From Candidatus Melainabacteria bacterium (GTDB lineage: Bacteria > Cyanobacteriota > Vampirovibrionia > Obscuribacterales > Obscuribacteraceae), in contig RXJR01000038.1 of NCBI GenBank assembly GCA_003963305.1, positions 1-64,000 on the forward strand: 64,000 nt of DNA. Reading direction: 5' to 3'. The stretch's first letter is position 1. Each line of letters begins with the position of its first letter. The position numbers and the translations under genes are program-made. This document shows positions 3,162 to 23,498 of this stretch, piece after piece. The notes under the pieces were generated by a model, which was not told the DNA's origin, did not search any database, and was given only the letters and a program-made list of their open reading frames with translations.

Positions 3162-4033
3162 TATAGTTGCCCCACTGTTACTTCAGTCCGTAATGCATCA
3201 TGCTCCAGGTCTTGATAGTAGCTCATCACATTTGCAAGACCACGTTTCAAACGTGCGTCGTCAGCAGAGAGTCGTTGCAAGTCTCGGCTGAGTCGCACTC
3301 TAGCCACAGCCAATTCTTGAACACGCACTTTCTGCAATGACAAAATCTGAGGTAAATACTGTTTGTACAAATTGAGATTGCGCTGAACCAGAGCCGAGTA
3401 GCGATCTTCAAGAACGGAAGGTTCTGCGCTGGCGGAGTTCTCTCTGCGGAAATAAAGCGGCTGCTTGATCTGCTTGAAGTTGAAACCCTTTTGCAGCGCA
3501 TCCAACAAGAATTGACGCTCCTGGTCGCTGTCCAGATTTTCGCGATAACCCTCTACAGCATCAAACACGCTTCTCTTATAGATGAAGGTATTACATACGG
3601 TGCTGCGGCTGAGAATTTGAGGGATCTCGAGTTCCGGATAAACAATGGCATCGGCGCCGCCAAAAATGCGAATTGCGGTGCAAACTCCGTCATCATTGCT
3701 GTCGAGCAGATACTTGACTGTCTCGCTCACATACTGTGGCGCCAGGAGGTCTGCCGCATCAAGGGTCAAAATATACTCACCAGACGAGCGTACGATACCC
3801 GCATTACGGGCAACAGAACTGCCCTTTCTCGACTCCAATTTGAAAACGAGCAACTTCGGATGACGAAGCCCTCGCAACAACTGAATGGCGCTCACCCCGG
3901 GCGAACAATCATCAACAACAATGATCTCGACATTCGCGTAAGTCTGCGCGATCACGCTTTCAACAGCGTCGCGCAAAAACTCCGGCTGATCAAAGTAAGG
4001 AATAACAACCGAAACAGTAGGTTGTGCAGTCAT
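3161..4033 (-). CDS. Family 2 glycosyltransferase
   Basis: Cytoplasmic GT-A fold glycosyltransferase of 290 residues. The N-terminus SVVIPYFDQPEFLRDAVESV, the nucleotide-binding EIIVVDDCSPG block and the LTLDAADLLAP segment near residue 100 (the DxD-like site) are typical of GT2 enzymes using NDP-sugars. The last 80 residues are helical and rich in Arg/Leu and probably form an extension. GAGG stands six bases before ATG 4033. It overlaps the downstream coiled-coil gene by one base and follows a second glycosyltransferase by 13 bases. Donor and acceptor cannot be read from sequence; cell-surface glycan synthesis is likely. Confidence 0.85.
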   Translation of the reverse strand: MTAQPTVSVVIPYFDQPEFLRDAVESVIAQTYANVEIIVVDDCSPGVSAIQLLRGLRHPKLLVFKLESRKGSSVARNAGIVRSSGEYILTLDAADLLAPQYVSETVKYLLDSNDDGVCTAIRIFGGADAIVYPELEIPQILSRSTVCNTFIYKRSVFDAVEGYRENLDSDQERQFLLDALQKGFNFKQIKQPLYFRRENSASAEPSVLEDRYSALVQRNLNLYKQYLPQILSLQKVRVQELAVARVRLSRDLQRLSADDARLKRGLANVMSYYQDLEHDALRTEVTVGQL

Positions 4034-4822: not shown

Positions 4823-5974
4823 CTATCTCGCTTGTGTGGCTCGCTCTAACTGAACGCCAGCGGCAGCAGTTGAGGGTTGAGCGCAAAAATCACGAATGCC
4901 CTTGATCACTTCATCAATTTGTTCGTCGGTCAGTTCGGGGAACATCGGCAAGCTCAGAATTCTCTTCGCCAACCGTTCGGTAACAGGAAGGTCACCAGGT
5001 TTATAACCTAAATAGCTGTAGGCTTTCTGCGTATGTGCAGGAATCGGATAGTGAATCAGACACTGGATGCCACGATCCAGCAGATAAGATTGCAAGTCGT
5101 CTCGATGAGGCGTCTGAATAACGTACAAATGATATACGTGTGTGCTGTCGCTGTTTTCAGCAGGGGTCACAACCACGTCTTTCAGGGCGTCTGTGTACCG
5201 TTTTGCGATTTCACGACGACGATCATTCCATTCCAGAACAAATGGTATTTGTGCTGAAAGAATGGCAGCTTGCATCTCGTCAAGACGGCTGTTGATACCG
5301 ACTATGTCGTGATGGTAGCGCTTCGACTGTCCGTAATTTCGCAACATGACGAGTCGATCGAAGTTTTCGCGCGATTTCGTCGAGACAGCGCCGCCGTCGC
5401 CGAACGCACCGAGATTTTTGCTGGGATAGAAGCTGAAAGCTCCAAAATCGCCTATTGTGCCGGCGATCTTACCTTTGTAGGTGGCACCTGTAGCCTGCGC
5501 CACATCTTCGACGACGACTAGCTTGTGCTTGGCAGCAATCGTCATGATGGCGTCCATATCGACGACCTGACCATAGAGATGCACAGGAATAATCGCTTTC
5601 GTTTTAGCGGTTATCTTGGATTCAGCGTCAGCGACGTCCATAACATAGGAAGCTGGGTCCAGATCAACGAACACGGGCGTTGCACCTGTCATCGAAATCG
5701 CGGATATCGTTGGTACAGCAGTGTGGGCGACTACGAGTACCTCATCACCAGGGCCCACGTCGCATGCGGCCAACGCAAGATAAATCGCCTCAGTACCCGA
5801 CGCGCAGCCTGCCACGTAGCCGCTGCCTAAGAATTCTTCAAAGTCTTTCTCAAAACGCTCCAGCTCAGGTCCGAGAATATAGTGACCACTCTCCAGAACG
5901 CGCTGAACTGCCTTATCAATCTGGGGCCTGTACGCCTGATAGTGGGTCTTCAAATCACCGAAAGGGACTTTCAC
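4823..5974 (-). CDS. DegT/DnrJ/EryC1/StrS sugar aminotransferase
   Basis: PLP enzyme of about 383 residues that probably transaminates a keto-sugar nucleotide for surface glycan assembly. The Schiff-base lysine lies in FGAFSFYPSKNLGAFGDGGAV (about residue 183). The N-terminal VPFGDLKTHY and the ASGTEAIYLAL phosphate-binding turn are typical of the family. GTG 5974 is preferred over GTG 5980 because GAGG lies five bases upstream of it and it gives the family-like start MKVPFGDL. It heads the minus-strand glycan operon, opposite the SDR at 6206. The exact sugar cannot be assigned. Confidence 0.85.
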   Translation of the reverse strand: MKVPFGDLKTHYQAYRPQIDKAVQRVLESGHYILGPELERFEKDFEEFLGSGYVAGCASGTEAIYLALAACDVGPGDEVLVVAHTAVPTISAISMTGATPVFVDLDPASYVMDVADAESKITAKTKAIIPVHLYGQVVDMDAIMTIAAKHKLVVVEDVAQATGATYKGKIAGTIGDFGAFSFYPSKNLGAFGDGGAVSTKSRENFDRLVMLRNYGQSKRYHHDIVGINSRLDEMQAAILSAQIPFVLEWNDRRREIAKRYTDALKDVVVTPAENSDSTHVYHLYVIQTPHRDDLQSYLLDRGIQCLIHYPIPAHTQKAYSYLGYKPGDLPVTERLAKRILSLPMFPELTDEQIDEVIKGIRDFCAQPSTAAAGVQLERATQAR

Positions 5975-18811: not shown

Positions 18812-21800
18812 TCAGTCTTCCTGTACGGCACCAACAGGCGTGCGCGAGATGTTGAAATACTTAGCTTCAGGATGCGGCACAACTATTGCCGAGGTGCTCT
18901 GCTCAGGAACGAGCATAAACTCTTCTGAAAGTGACATGCCGATGCGTTCGGGTTGCAGCAGTTCAAAGAGCTGTTTTTGATCTTCCAGGTTCGGGCAAGC
19001 TGGATAACCAAAACTATATCTGGTGCCGCGATAACCCTGCTGGAACATTTTCTGCCGCTCGGCAGCATCTTCTGCTGCGAAGCCAAGTTCAGCCCGAATG
19101 CGCTTATGTATCACCTCAGCCAGACCTTCAGCCGATTCGACAGACAAACCATGGAAATATAGATACTCAGTGTACTTACCTTCCTTGAACAACTCCTGAG
19201 CGTATTCACTGGCAACATCACCCATGGTGACTACTTGAAGCGGCAATACATCCATTCTCTTCTCATCGACGGCACTGAAAAAGTCTGAAATACACAGATA
19301 TCTGCCGTGGTCTTGCCTTGGGAATCTGAACCGAACCCACTCAGTCTTTCGGTCTTCGCGATAGACGATCAAATCGTCACCGGAAGATTGACAGGGGAAA
19401 TAGCCATAAATAGCTTTAGGCGCAAGCAGCTTTTCTTTGATGCATCTACTTTTCAGTTCAATGAGAGCAGGCATGACCTTGTCGGCGACCATAGCCTTGT
19501 ACTCAGCCTCCGGCATCTGACCCTGCCTGACTCTGAACTGTCCACGAATCAGCACATTCTCGTTGACGTGGTCGAATACTTCGCTCAGCGGCACGTCTTC
19601 AATTATCTTCGAGCCCCAAAACGGTGGCACTGCAATTTCCACATTGCGCGTCACATCAGAACGCTCCGGCTTCTTCTGACCGTTGTTGGAAACTGGGTCT
19701 CCGCCGTTGCCGTTCTTCGGCTCGACGACCTGGACGACCGGGCGCTCACCTGGCGCTGACATGAACGGCGTCAGGTCACGATTCTTGGCGATTGCTTCCA
19801 TAATGCGCAAATCATCGAATGCATCACCGGCATAGAACAACTTACCGTTGTACACGCGACGGCAGTCCTCTTCTACATACCGGCGAGTCAGAGCAGCGCC
19901 GCCCAGAATGACAGGTATGCCGATATCGCGCTGATTGAGAATGTCGAGATTCTCTTTCATTATCACAGTCGATTTGACGAGCAAACCACTCATCCCGATA
20001 CAATCTGCTTTGTGCTCAACGGCGGCAGAGATGATGTTTTCGATGGGCTGCTTGATACCGAGATTGATCACTTTGTAGCCGTTATTAGTGAGAATGATAT
20101 CGACAAGATTTTTGCCGATATCGTGCACATCGCCTTTGACAGTAGCCAGTACCATCGTCGCCAGCGATGAGCCTTCCACACGGTCCATGTATGGTTCAAG
20201 AAATGCCACTGCCGCCTTCATTGTTTCGGCTGATTGCAAAACGAAGGGCAATTGCATTTTGCCCGAGCCGAACAATTCGCCGACAACCTTCATACCTTCC
20301 AGGAGGATGTCATTGATTATGGCAAGGGGAGCATACTTCTCCATCGCAATTTTCAAGTCTTTCTCGAGATTGACCCTATTACCGTCTATGACGCGCTTCT
20401 TGAGCACATCTTCGATTTCAGCGGGGCCGCTCTCTACTTCAGCGGCAGACGATTTACCGCCGCGTTCCTTGTAGAACTCAAGCAATTTGAAAAGAGGGTC
20501 ATAATCATCGCTGCGCTCGTCAAAAATCAGCTTGCGGTGATATTCACGTTCCTCTTCATTGATTTTGTACAGAGGCAAAATTTTCTGGGCATTGACGATA
20601 GCCATATCCAGCCCGTACTCAACAGCATAGTGCAAGAAGACAGAGTTGAGAATTTGCCGAATCGCCGGGTCGAATCCAAAAGAGATGTTGCTCACACCAA
20701 GAATAGTGTGCACACCCGGCAGATTCTCCTTAATCAGCTTGATGCCTTTAAGTGTCTCGAGACCAAGCTTGCGGTCATCTTCGTTGCCGGTTGAGAGCGT
20801 GAATGTGAGAGCGTCGAAGATCAAGTCCGAAGGAGCGATACCAGCCGCGGTGGCGATATCGTAAATGCGTCTGGCAATTTCCAGTTTCTTTTCAGCGGGC
20901 CGAGCCATGCCCACTTCATCGATGGTCAAAGCCACGGCGGCAGCGCCATACCTGGTGATCAGCTCGATTTTGCGAAGCATTTTTTCTTCGCCGTCTTCCA
21001 AATTTATAGAATTAACAATCGGCTTACCGGCAACCAGCTGCAACGAATCCTCGAGCACATTGAACTCGGTGGTATCGATGACCAGCGGAATCTGCATCTC
21101 TGTGTTCAGCCGCTTGATGAGCGTATTCATGTCGCGCACTTCATCGCGTCCGACATAGGCTGTGCAAACGTCTAAAACATGCGCTCCCTCTCGCTCCTGG
21201 TCGCGCGCCATGGCGACCATAGAGTCCCAATCTTCCTTCTGCAAAAGCTGTTTGAACTTACGACTGCCGTTTGTGTTGGTGCGCTCACCGACAATCAGCG
21301 GCGCCGGGTCGACATGCATTGCAACGGATGTGTAGATGCTCGATACGGAAGGAGTGAAATCAATCAGACGCTGCTTGGGCTTGATATTGCCCACGACCTC
21401 GCAAACGCGCTTCAGATGCTCAGGCGTAGTACCGCAGCAACCACCGATGATGTTCACGCCGAGATCTCGAGCGAAGTGATTGAGCGAATCAGCCAGTTCC
21501 TGCGGCGTCAGCTTGTAGACTGTTTCGCCGTTCACATTTTCAGGCAAACCGGCGTTGGGCAAAACGGAGACGTACTTAGGACTGTTGTGACAGAGATAGC
21601 TGACAGGATCGAGCATCTCGCGAGGACCGGTAGCGCAGTTCAAACCAATCACATCAATTGGAAAAGCATTGAGAGTGGTCAGGGCACAGGAAATATCAGA
21701 GCCTACGAGCATCGTGCCCAGAGGTGGTGCCTCAATGGTGACTTGAGTGATAATTGGTACGCGTTTACCGACTTTCTTCAAATAGTCGAGAATGGCAACA

Positions 21801-22303
21801 ATAGCTGCTTTAGCCTGCAAAAGATCTTGCCCGGTCTCAAACTGCAGCGCATCTACGCCACCATCTACAAGCCCGGCCACTTGCACGTAATATGCATCTT
21901 TCATCTCGGCGAAGGAAATGTGACCGAGTGAAGGCAGTTTAGTAGTCGGTCCTATAGAACCGGAAACAAAACGTTTCTGCCCGTTCTGCGAATAACTGTG
22001 CGCGACATCTCGAGCCAGTTCGGCGGCCTTTTTATTTAGCTCGTAAGCCCGTTCAGCCAATCCGAATTCAGCCAATACTATCGGCGAGCCGCCAAACGAG
22101 TCGGTTTCGACAACATCACAGCCGACTTCCAGAAAGGAAGCGTGGATCTCTTTCAACACATGAGGTTGGCTTTCGACCAGGATTTCGGGACAATTTTCAT
22201 AGCCGAGATAGTCATCGATGGAAAGGTCATACTTATGAATCGATGTGCCCATGGCTCCATCGAATATGAGGACCTTTTCCTTCAGTGCTTCCAGGAAATC
22301 CAT
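18812..22303 (-). CDS. metH: Cobalamin-dependent methionine synthase
   Basis: A full-length MetH of 1163 residues that methylates homocysteine from methyl-THF through cobalamin. Domains in order: homocysteine-binding (1-300) with zinc ligands Cys223, Cys289 and Cys290; pterin-binding (about 335-590, starting IVGERTNTNGSRKF); the B12 cap and Rossmann domain (about 635-865) with the axial His727 in GDVHDIGKNL; and the C-terminal reactivation domain (about 905-1160), with RGTRYSFGYPACP. The reactivation domain implies repair with S-adenosylmethionine. A 56-residue gene ends 69 bases upstream on the same strand. No cobalamin riboswitch was recognised. Confidence 0.96.
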   Translation of the reverse strand: MDFLEALKEKVLIFDGAMGTSIHKYDLSIDDYLGYENCPEILVESQPHVLKEIHASFLEVGCDVVETDSFGGSPIVLAEFGLAERAYELNKKAAELARDVAHSYSQNGQKRFVSGSIGPTTKLPSLGHISFAEMKDAYYVQVAGLVDGGVDALQFETGQDLLQAKAAIVAILDYLKKVGKRVPIITQVTIEAPPLGTMLVGSDISCALTTLNAFPIDVIGLNCATGPREMLDPVSYLCHNSPKYVSVLPNAGLPENVNGETVYKLTPQELADSLNHFARDLGVNIIGGCCGTTPEHLKRVCEVVGNIKPKQRLIDFTPSVSSIYTSVAMHVDPAPLIVGERTNTNGSRKFKQLLQKEDWDSMVAMARDQEREGAHVLDVCTAYVGRDEVRDMNTLIKRLNTEMQIPLVIDTTEFNVLEDSLQLVAGKPIVNSINLEDGEEKMLRKIELITRYGAAAVALTIDEVGMARPAEKKLEIARRIYDIATAAGIAPSDLIFDALTFTLSTGNEDDRKLGLETLKGIKLIKENLPGVHTILGVSNISFGFDPAIRQILNSVFLHYAVEYGLDMAIVNAQKILPLYKINEEEREYHRKLIFDERSDDYDPLFKLLEFYKERGGKSSAAEVESGPAEIEDVLKKRVIDGNRVNLEKDLKIAMEKYAPLAIINDILLEGMKVVGELFGSGKMQLPFVLQSAETMKAAVAFLEPYMDRVEGSSLATMVLATVKGDVHDIGKNLVDIILTNNGYKVINLGIKQPIENIISAAVEHKADCIGMSGLLVKSTVIMKENLDILNQRDIGIPVILGGAALTRRYVEEDCRRVYNGKLFYAGDAFDDLRIMEAIAKNRDLTPFMSAPGERPVVQVVEPKNGNGGDPVSNNGQKKPERSDVTRNVEIAVPPFWGSKIIEDVPLSEVFDHVNENVLIRGQFRVRQGQMPEAEYKAMVADKVMPALIELKSRCIKEKLLAPKAIYGYFPCQSSGDDLIVYREDRKTEWVRFRFPRQDHGRYLCISDFFSAVDEKRMDVLPLQVVTMGDVASEYAQELFKEGKYTEYLYFHGLSVESAEGLAEVIHKRIRAELGFAAEDAAERQKMFQQGYRGTRYSFGYPACPNLEDQKQLFELLQPERIGMSLSEEFMLVPEQSTSAIVVPHPEAKYFNISRTPVGAVQED

Positions 22304-22372
22304 CGAAAGGCTAATCTCGCGCCGCTACCGAGACAGTTATATCCCAAAGAGCTTGTCAAAATCAAAATAAGG

Positions 22373-22543
22373 TTAAGCGGCTGCGGGTTTGACGGGCTTC
22401 CAAGTAATAGCACAGACACCGTTGCGGCAGATTTCGCCGGTGCGCTTAATATCCCGGGAATCGGAGTCTGCTTCGACAGCAGATTGAGCGGAACTTTCAG
22501 TCTCATCGACTTTGCGGAGCTCGGACGTAATTCTTCCGTTCAT
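22373..22543 (-). CDS. Small protein upstream of metH
   Basis: A 56-residue protein starting at ATG 22543, with GGAG eight bases upstream (AGGCAGGAGAACAGCC before the ATG). The N-terminal two thirds are polar and acidic; the tail GEICRNGVCAITWKPVKP holds two cysteines three residues apart. There is no signal peptide. It ends 69 bases before metH on the same strand, so it is probably co-transcribed. The cysteine pair could bind metal or respond to redox state, but nothing shows this. Supported by ribosome binding site, position and composition only. Confidence 0.6.
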   Translation of the reverse strand: MNGRITSELRKVDETESSAQSAVEADSDSRDIKRTGEICRNGVCAITWKPVKPAAA

Positions 22544-22628
22544 GGCTGTTCTCCTGCCTCTATACATGCCTGACGGAAAAGAGAAAAAATTTAGGACCAT
22601 TCGGCTCGATTTAATCGACTTTGCTTAA

Positions 22629-23498
22629 CTAATATCGATCGACAGGCGCATAACCGGCGGCACGCACCTGCTTTTGCGCTTCCGAGCTGAGACAGTAATC
22701 GACAAACTTGCGCACAGATGGCTTGGGATCTTCATCCATAAAGAATATGAGCGGGCGACTGAGTGGATAATTATCGATGGTTGATAGTTCCGTCGGCTTC
22801 ACGGGAGCGGAATCGGCAGACAATTTCAGTCCCAGTATTTTGACTTTGTCTCCGGCTTCTGCCGCCGTTCCCATACCGACATAGCCAATCGCTGCTTTAT
22901 TCTTCTCCACCGCCGCCAACAAATCACTGCCAGAAAGCACTGTTTGTGAGCCTTTAGCATAATCAATACTCTGCAAAAGATGACTTTTGACGAAATTGTA
23001 TGTGCCTGATTTTTCTTCCCGTGTAAATACCTGAATAGGAATTTTTGCTCCGCCGACCGCGCTCCAATCTTTGATGGAACCGGCAAAAATCTCTTTCACT
23101 TGAGCTAGAGTGAGGGCCGAAACAGGATTAGCAGAGTTGACGACAATAGCGACAGAGTCTCTGGCAACTGTAACTTTCTTCAGTTTTACAGACTTTTTGT
23201 GCAGCTCAATCGACTCGGCCGAGTTTAGATCTCGCGAGGCAGCAGCCAGATCAGTGGTGCGGTTCAGAAGCGCTTCGATGCCTGAACCGGAATCGCCCGA
23301 GTTGACGGAGATAGGTACATTCGGCTCCTTCTGCATGAAGTTACTGGCCCAGGTACGGACCAGTGCAGTCATTGTGTCTGAGCCCTCGATTGAGACGAGT
23401 GCGGTCAGCTGCCGAGCATCTCGTTTCACTCTTCTGGTACAAGCGCACAGCGAAAAGCACAGTCCAACAATCAGTGAAACTATTATTAGATGGCGCAC
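22629..23498 (-). CDS. PstS-like phosphate-binding lipoprotein
   Basis: A 289-residue substrate-binding protein of the PstS family (periplasmic-binding type 2). The N-terminus is a lipoprotein signal (IVGLCFSLCAC; probable lipidated Cys20). IEGSDTM, SGDSGSGIEALLNRTTDLAAASR and REEKSGTYNFV are the phosphate-contacting blocks of PstS. It probably captures phosphate outside the membrane. No pstCAB transporter genes lie beside it, so it works with a distant transporter or as a sensor. The downstream gene on this strand is the metH leader gene, 85 bases away. Confidence 0.87.
   Translation of the reverse strand: MRHLIIVSLIVGLCFSLCACTRRVKRDARQLTALVSIEGSDTMTALVRTWASNFMQKEPNVPISVNSGDSGSGIEALLNRTTDLAAASRDLNSAESIELHKKSVKLKKVTVARDSVAIVVNSANPVSALTLAQVKEIFAGSIKDWSAVGGAKIPIQVFTREEKSGTYNFVKSHLLQSIDYAKGSQTVLSGSDLLAAVEKNKAAIGYVGMGTAAEAGDKVKILGLKLSADSAPVKPTELSTIDNYPLSRPLIFFMDEDPKPSVRKFVDYCLSSEAQKQVRAAGYAPVDRY

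Follow-up and report, generated by a model that had tools for sequence, protein, structure and literature searches.

A short open reading frame lies on the minus strand just upstream of metH in the window, i.e. the whole stretch of 64,000 nucleotides of Candidatus Melainabacteria bacterium DNA that was analysed. This locus raises the question of whether the frame is a real gene and whether its product serves the cobalamin-dependent methionine synthase encoded next to it. The minus-strand translation of 22543-22373 is MNGRITSELRKVDETESSAQSAVEADSDSRDIKRTGEICRNGVCAITWKPVKPAAA, 56 codons followed by a stop, and the plus strand of the same segment gives a translation without the cysteine-pair protein. 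The sequence 5' of the ATG, ggcAGGAGaacagccATG, exhibits a good Shine-Dalgarno sequence with a 7-nt spacing. An earlier note, made from the sequence, had claimed a good ribosome binding site and a distance of 69 bases to metH; both were found on the minus strand, AGGAG at this spacing and a spacer that ends just before the metH start at 22303. The features are collected in Table 1.

Table 1 Features of the small gene and its surroundings in the window
Feature	Position	Strand	Detail	Basis
56-aa small protein gene	22373..22543	minus	ATG at 22543, stop 22375-22373	translation, orthologues, selection, family profile
C-terminus of the 56-aa protein			CRNGVCAITWKPVKPAAA	
Shine-Dalgarno AGGAG	22551..22555	minus	7 nt from ATG	read from sequence
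Conserved C-terminal module C39-x-N-G-V-C44-x-I-x-W48-K-P50-VKPAAA	22376..22429	minus	two Cys flanking a turn, the second Cys and WKP being peroxiredoxin-like	alignment, motif counts, peroxiredoxin tail match
Spacer between small gene and metH	22304..22372	minus	69 nt	congener alignment, promoter/terminator scan
metH, B12-dependent methionine synthase	18812..22303	minus	downstream neighbour	TIGR02082 and Pfam domains
PstS-like phosphate-binding protein	22629..23498	minus	upstream neighbour, cluster c16	Pfam/NCBIfam scans

Full-length orthologues of the 56-aa protein were found in two congeners, with 66% and 59% identity, and both cysteines are kept in three congeners. The three pairs among three congeners give pN/pS ratios of 0.44, 0.52 and 0.44; bootstrapping sets the upper bounds at 0.75, 0.77 and 0.67, and at least 99.9% of the resamples fall below 1. 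When the +1 and +2 frames were read as coding, stop codons being omitted, pN/pS ranged from 1.03 to 2.27, so the coding behaviour is confined to the proposed frame. In each of the three pairs, differences are more frequent at third codon positions than at first or second ones. In its own genome, the protein is recovered by the family profile described below with an E-value of 1.9e-10. These data confirm that the 56-aa frame is a real gene under purifying selection. The earlier note had proposed a real small gene and had named an unconserved frame, or one free of purifying selection, as what would speak against it; the frame proved to be conserved, with pN/pS of 0.44-0.52.

Used as a query, the 56-aa protein retrieved weak paralogues whose likeness is mainly at the C-terminus. 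A family profile was built from 33 tails drawn from these matches and gave 115 matches in 47 of the 53 genomes of the order (probably Obscuribacterales) at E<=0.01, with 1-6 per positive genome, the 6 other genomes having no member at this threshold. The genome of the window contributes five clear members, with E-values between 1.9e-10 and 1.3e-7; a sixth match, weak and inside a 909-aa frame, was taken as chance. In a phylum-wide draw, the profile matched 3 of 292 genomes, that of the window included. Two matches of this draw, L187 and L188 (E 6.5e-4 and 0.001), were treated as chance, W-[KR]-P not being in place. One match in viral contigs was read as a chance frame, and the search of phage records for the family gave no match.

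The 115 matches fall in 114 regions, and the 109 that fit a strict motif were counted. Left out by this motif were L167 (CSNGVCTLACKP, W replaced), L169 (C-x3-C), L170 (CKNEVC, G replaced), L174 (F for W), L186 (W lost) and L179, whose match lies inside a 909-aa frame and is probably due to chance. The constancy of C, G, C, W and P in the 109 members follows from the motif, which requires them, and the independent support for it comes from the 33-row alignment, in which all five are invariant. The fixed tail of the family is C-x-[NDG]-G-V-C-x-[LVI]-x-W-K-P, preceded by variable N-termini, and the median length of the 109 members is 62 aa with the start placed by a simple rule. The gap from the second cysteine to the tryptophan is 3 residues in 103 members and 4 in 6 of them. 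[LVI] stands two residues past the second cysteine in 106/109, N, D, G or S precedes the motif glycine in 93/109, and K or R follows the tryptophan in 100/109. Between 2 and 49 residues follow W-K-P, the last one being Ala or Ser in 80/109. At L123 two members lie close together, at 3628-3826 and 4829-5081 of its minus strand, and L094 likewise holds two; a C-x3-C spacing is seen in one L123 member (QCNGSCELHWKP) and in L169 (ECSGVCSLSWKP).

S, E, N, T, A and Q abound in the N-terminal part of the members, and AlphaFold models of three sequences gave an N-terminal body without structure, with a mean pLDDT of 56. The family N-termini are probably disordered. Pfam returned no family for the 56-aa protein, and no family was found in Pfam, NCBIfam or PHROG for the members scanned. 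Among the 33 C-terminal parts, seven families (four Pfam, three PHROGs) were each touched by one member (E 0.023-0.085), PF10417, taken up below, being one of the seven. We rejected a weak match to a calcium exchanger model of NCBIfam among four members (E 0.028) and four PDB matches of the family profile (E 0.23-0.32), attributed to chance, in C-x-x-G-V-C stretches of NS1A-binding protein and evasin. Titles and abstract starts of open-licence PMC text held nothing on this small-protein family. The family is apparently undescribed and specific to one order.

A lead to the nature of the tail came from one of the 33 members, which touches PF10417, the C-terminal segment of peroxiredoxins, with an E-value of 0.085; no small protein matched this model above its cut-off. 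Of the 7 occurrences of the pattern G-[VILM]-C-x3-W-K-P in the 7.48-Mb genome of the window, five are in family members, one is in the peroxiredoxin and one, in a 31-aa frame, was put down to chance; the backward control pattern does not occur there. Alignment of the 33 family tails with 13 peroxiredoxin tails of the order by hhalign gave a probability of 84.9, a P-value of 6.4e-6 and a score of 22.6 over 14 columns, and none of 150 column-permuted tails came near this score (maximum 13.1). The single own-genome tail scored 19.5, above all 250 C-termini of rough-called neighbouring ORFs (maximum 10.5). With the first cysteine in the family profile, the own-genome peroxiredoxin is absent at E<=1. 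A model without this cysteine, run against 39,001 frames that include about 30 peroxiredoxin loci added on purpose, returned peroxiredoxin frames as 21 of its first 40 matches outside the family, the best with an E-value of 0.086; the peroxiredoxin of the window's genome reached an E-value of 19.

A resolving-cysteine segment, [VL]-C-x3-W-K-P, is recognised in the small proteins by hhalign and by the genome pattern, against which stand PF10417 and the E-value of 19. In the small proteins, W-K-P and the second [KR]-P are separated by one residue fewer than in the local peroxiredoxin, and the 56-aa protein contains no AhpC/TSA domain (PF00578) with its peroxidatic cysteine motif. In the controlled tests the tail of the small proteins resembles the peroxiredoxin resolving-cysteine tail above chance, but over a short length; shared ancestry cannot be distinguished from convergence on the same docking site.

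The genome of the window encodes a typical 2-Cys peroxiredoxin (G000:C12:44784-45320; PF00578, E 2.1e-41) whose tail is LRVLEALKTGGLCGADWKPGQKPLTV, also given as TGGLCGADWKPGQKPLTV, and ends 7 residues past W-K-P. This peroxiredoxin was matched in 51 of the 53 genomes at E<=1e-20, 49 of them at at least 80% identity; G016 and G068 have a match at 37-45% identity only. It is present in all six genomes that have no family member. PF10417 stayed below its cut-off in all 53 genomes, which reflects the shortened tail of this order; the absence of a 2-Cys peroxiredoxin, which this miss might have indicated, is contradicted by the 51 matches. In a comparison with solved structures, this tail was matched to the segment of BAS1 and PRDX2 whose cysteine has an established role as the resolving cysteine. 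A thioredoxin-like gene lies near the peroxiredoxin in 30/30 loci examined (L262-L291), out of 51 genomes with a match; in the window's genome it is found at about G000:C12:45461-45988 and its product carries CGTC. None of the 114 family regions holds a detectable relative of the peroxiredoxin or of the thioredoxin-like protein.

The small proteins bear an extra cysteine five residues ahead of the peroxiredoxin-like one. It is present in all five own-genome members and absent from the peroxiredoxin, which has a lysine there. Outside the strict motif, 4 of 5 divergent members (L167, L170, L174 and L186) have it as well, and it lies four residues ahead instead in L169 and in the second member at L123. 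AlphaFold places two-residue strands at 39-40 and 43-44 around N41-G42, with low confidence (block pLDDT 56-63). Asn-Gly favours two-residue turns, and cross-strand cysteines at such turns can form a disulfide.

Because the two-cysteine tail resembles the reactive peroxiredoxin tail, the small proteins are probably redox switches; that the family members are thiol (dithiol) switches linked to peroxiredoxin and thioredoxin is the reading that we prefer, at a probability somewhat short of even. The tail would be a free-standing copy or mimic of the 2-Cys peroxiredoxin resolving-cysteine tail, with one cysteine added. C44, in its G-V-C-x3-W-K-P context, would form a mixed disulfide with a thioredoxin-like protein or an oxidised peroxiredoxin, and C39, set opposite by the N-G beta-turn, would resolve it, leaving a C39-C44 disulfide hairpin. 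The partner cysteine would thereby be built into the small protein, unlike that of the peroxiredoxin resolving cysteine, which pairs with the peroxidatic cysteine. Peroxiredoxin tails are where thioredoxin-fold reductases engage. The docking site of the small proteins may be the one used by these tails, on the thioredoxin-like protein of the gene neighbouring the peroxiredoxin or on the peroxiredoxin itself. Through its variable N-terminus, each paralogue would relay the redox state to a target of its own, which for the metH-linked one may be MetH or metH expression. A reversible C39-C44 disulfide is what the geometry of a low-confidence model (mean pLDDT 56) would allow, and within this scheme the disulfide, the partner on which it docks, the target and the way in which electrons flow are inferred. 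Two sources describe related chemistry: according to a review, Prx4 oxidises PDI-family partners via mixed disulfides (PMC12561257), and a plant study reports that the chloroplast 2-Cys peroxiredoxin acts as a thioredoxin oxidase (PMC6221545). A wider version, at a somewhat lower probability, is that peroxiredoxin tails of this order have turned into free genes, i.e. paralogous disordered adaptors of ~50-80 residues in which a docking module with its own resolving cysteine plugs targets, one of them MetH, into a peroxiredoxin/thioredoxin relay.

The earlier note had seen metal or redox sensing in the cysteines, and of these two redox is the better guess because the tail resembles that of the peroxiredoxin resolving cysteine. 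A small metal-binding protein, in which the C-x4-C pair offers two thiolates (four in a dimer) to zinc, copper or iron and W-K-P is structural, seems unlikely to us. The cysteine pair present in 33/33 aligned tails is consistent with such a site, as are the further cysteines of 27/109 members and a CusA-like efflux gene (c13, named by reading) that is first or second downstream, on the opposite strand, at seven loci; but 82/109 members have just the two motif cysteines, and a metal site alone leaves the peroxiredoxin-like W-K-P unexplained. Somewhat less likely again is a docking peptide without redox turnover, a tether or inhibitor that would compete with the peroxiredoxin tail for a shared site, e.g. 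on the thioredoxin-like protein. The similarity of the tail, a body predicted to be unstructured and the several paralogues of most member-bearing genomes suit it, whereas a pure tether has no use for the extra first cysteine, which is kept in the small members and absent from the peroxiredoxin. The lowest probability of all goes to a RiPP precursor, a ribosomally synthesised peptide whose Cys/Trp/Lys tail would be the core that is modified: the members are short and multi-copy and bear Cys and Trp at the C-terminus, but conservation is in the tail and not in a leader, and no maturase was recognised among the neighbour clusters read (named by reading, metH and the PstS-like gene being family-scanned).

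Two further explanations concern metH itself and are weighed against the neighbourhoods of the family, which were called with a rough gene caller (frames of at least 80 aa, longest start), so that distances are approximate. The metH gene was matched in 44 of the 53 genomes. A family member precedes it on the same strand, at about 68-196 nt, in all 14 genomes of three genera (g1 3/3, g23 8/8, g24 3/3), and none of the 29 other metH upstream stretches of the order holds one, two of these being shortened by contig ends and two relaxed-pattern matches among them being unrelated short frames. G035, in which the 5' end of metH is missing, was left out of both counts. Conserved small ORFs before metH, which the earlier note had proposed to look for, are found in three genera and not before the other metH genes examined in the order. 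Since those 29 are unlinked and 95 of the 109 motif-bearing members are situated away from metH, the family is not a dedicated MetH partner, one that occurs with metH and only there, and the idea of a small partner dedicated to the cobalamin enzyme was not supported. On the same counts, we regard a small MetH-specific regulator, e.g. of cobalamin reactivation or protection, as very improbable, even with the adjacency kept in 14/14 genomes. A cis-acting leader or arrest peptide that controls metH translation through its conserved C-terminus is given the same very low probability. Arrest peptides combine a variable N-terminus with a fixed C-terminus, as the small proteins do, and the 14 metH-linked members are upstream and co-directional. 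Of the 109 members, 47 have a convergent gene as their next downstream neighbour, 50 a same-strand gene within 300 nt, 10 a same-strand gene beyond that distance, and 2 have none; the convergent and the distant cases argue against cis control by the tail as a general role. The varying number of residues past W-K-P and a spacer without a terminator-like site also speak against it. The metH linkage is real and kept, but the family is dispersed and this is one of its postings.

The other postings, named by reading, include a NUDIX-like gene with a class I aldolase, a permease with a deaminase, an FHA gene, sigma-factor and response-regulator genes, CusA-like genes and others, and the member neighbourhoods form no coherent redox gene set. 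In L117, L133, L134, L138, L146, L154, L158, L160 and L166 another group of paralogues has a divergent NUDIX-like gene on one side and a convergent class I aldolase-like gene on the other, followed in L154, L158 and L166 by a methylmalonyl-CoA-epimerase-like gene (named by reading).

At the locus of the window, the metH product has 1163 aa and matches NCBIfam TIGR02082 at equivalog level with 1305 bits. On the other side, a PstS-like relative (c16) also lies upstream in the two remaining g1 genomes and in all three g24 ones. Between the window's locus (L073) and a congener (L074), 64 of 72 aligned spacer columns are identical, and the small gene itself, with 125/171, is below this conservation. 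As the spacer is better conserved than the gene, it may carry control signals of metH, which suggests that 22304-22372 is an unrecognised metH control element; the codon pattern of the small gene is evidence separate from the conserved spacer. A scan of 22200-22800 gave 0 terminator-like and 0 consensus sigma-70-like sites, and Rfam at gathering thresholds gave no riboswitch at metH, a tRNA at the far end being the sole match in the window.

If the proposed switch is correct, bacteria would possess a modular wiring of peroxide signals to chosen targets by tail-only adaptors that borrow the docking site of peroxiredoxin. How peroxiredoxin relays choose their targets is a debated question. The docking and the presumed target-choosing modules are here separate and tiny, so the idea is directly testable. 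Should the mechanism prove wrong, a family matched 115 times in 47/53 genomes, with C-G-C-W-P invariant in its 33 aligned tails and without a Pfam, NCBIfam or PHROG family for the members scanned, would still deserve annotation.

Among known systems, CP12 is small and has disordered regions, like the small proteins. CP12 carries a C-terminal cysteine pair, with another cysteine spacing and an AWD motif that the small proteins do not have. Its oxidised form assembles an enzyme complex within the thioredoxin network, according to the plant study (PMC6221545). A Pfam scan of the 56-aa protein, three relatives and the 33 C-terminal parts gave no match to the CP12 domain. A 20-aa C-terminal peptide of Prx4 is present as a separate chain in PDB 3w8j and 3wgx. 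The likeness here is that a short free C-x3-W-K-P peptide can be a ligand; the Prx4 peptide is an experimental fragment of a mammalian peroxiredoxin, whereas the tail of the small proteins is part of a separate gene. Its partners in 3w8j and 3wgx are presumably thioredoxin domains of PDI-family proteins.

The system most directly compared is the resolving-cysteine tail of typical 2-Cys peroxiredoxins (Prx1/AhpC/BAS1; the PF10417 region), which shares G-[VL]-C-x3-W-K-P at the extreme C-terminus and whose resolving cysteine aligns with the second cysteine of the small proteins. The small proteins differ from these enzymes in being without the peroxiredoxin domain and the peroxidatic cysteine and in having a cysteine added at -5, and the protein of the window is 56 aa long, with several paralogues.
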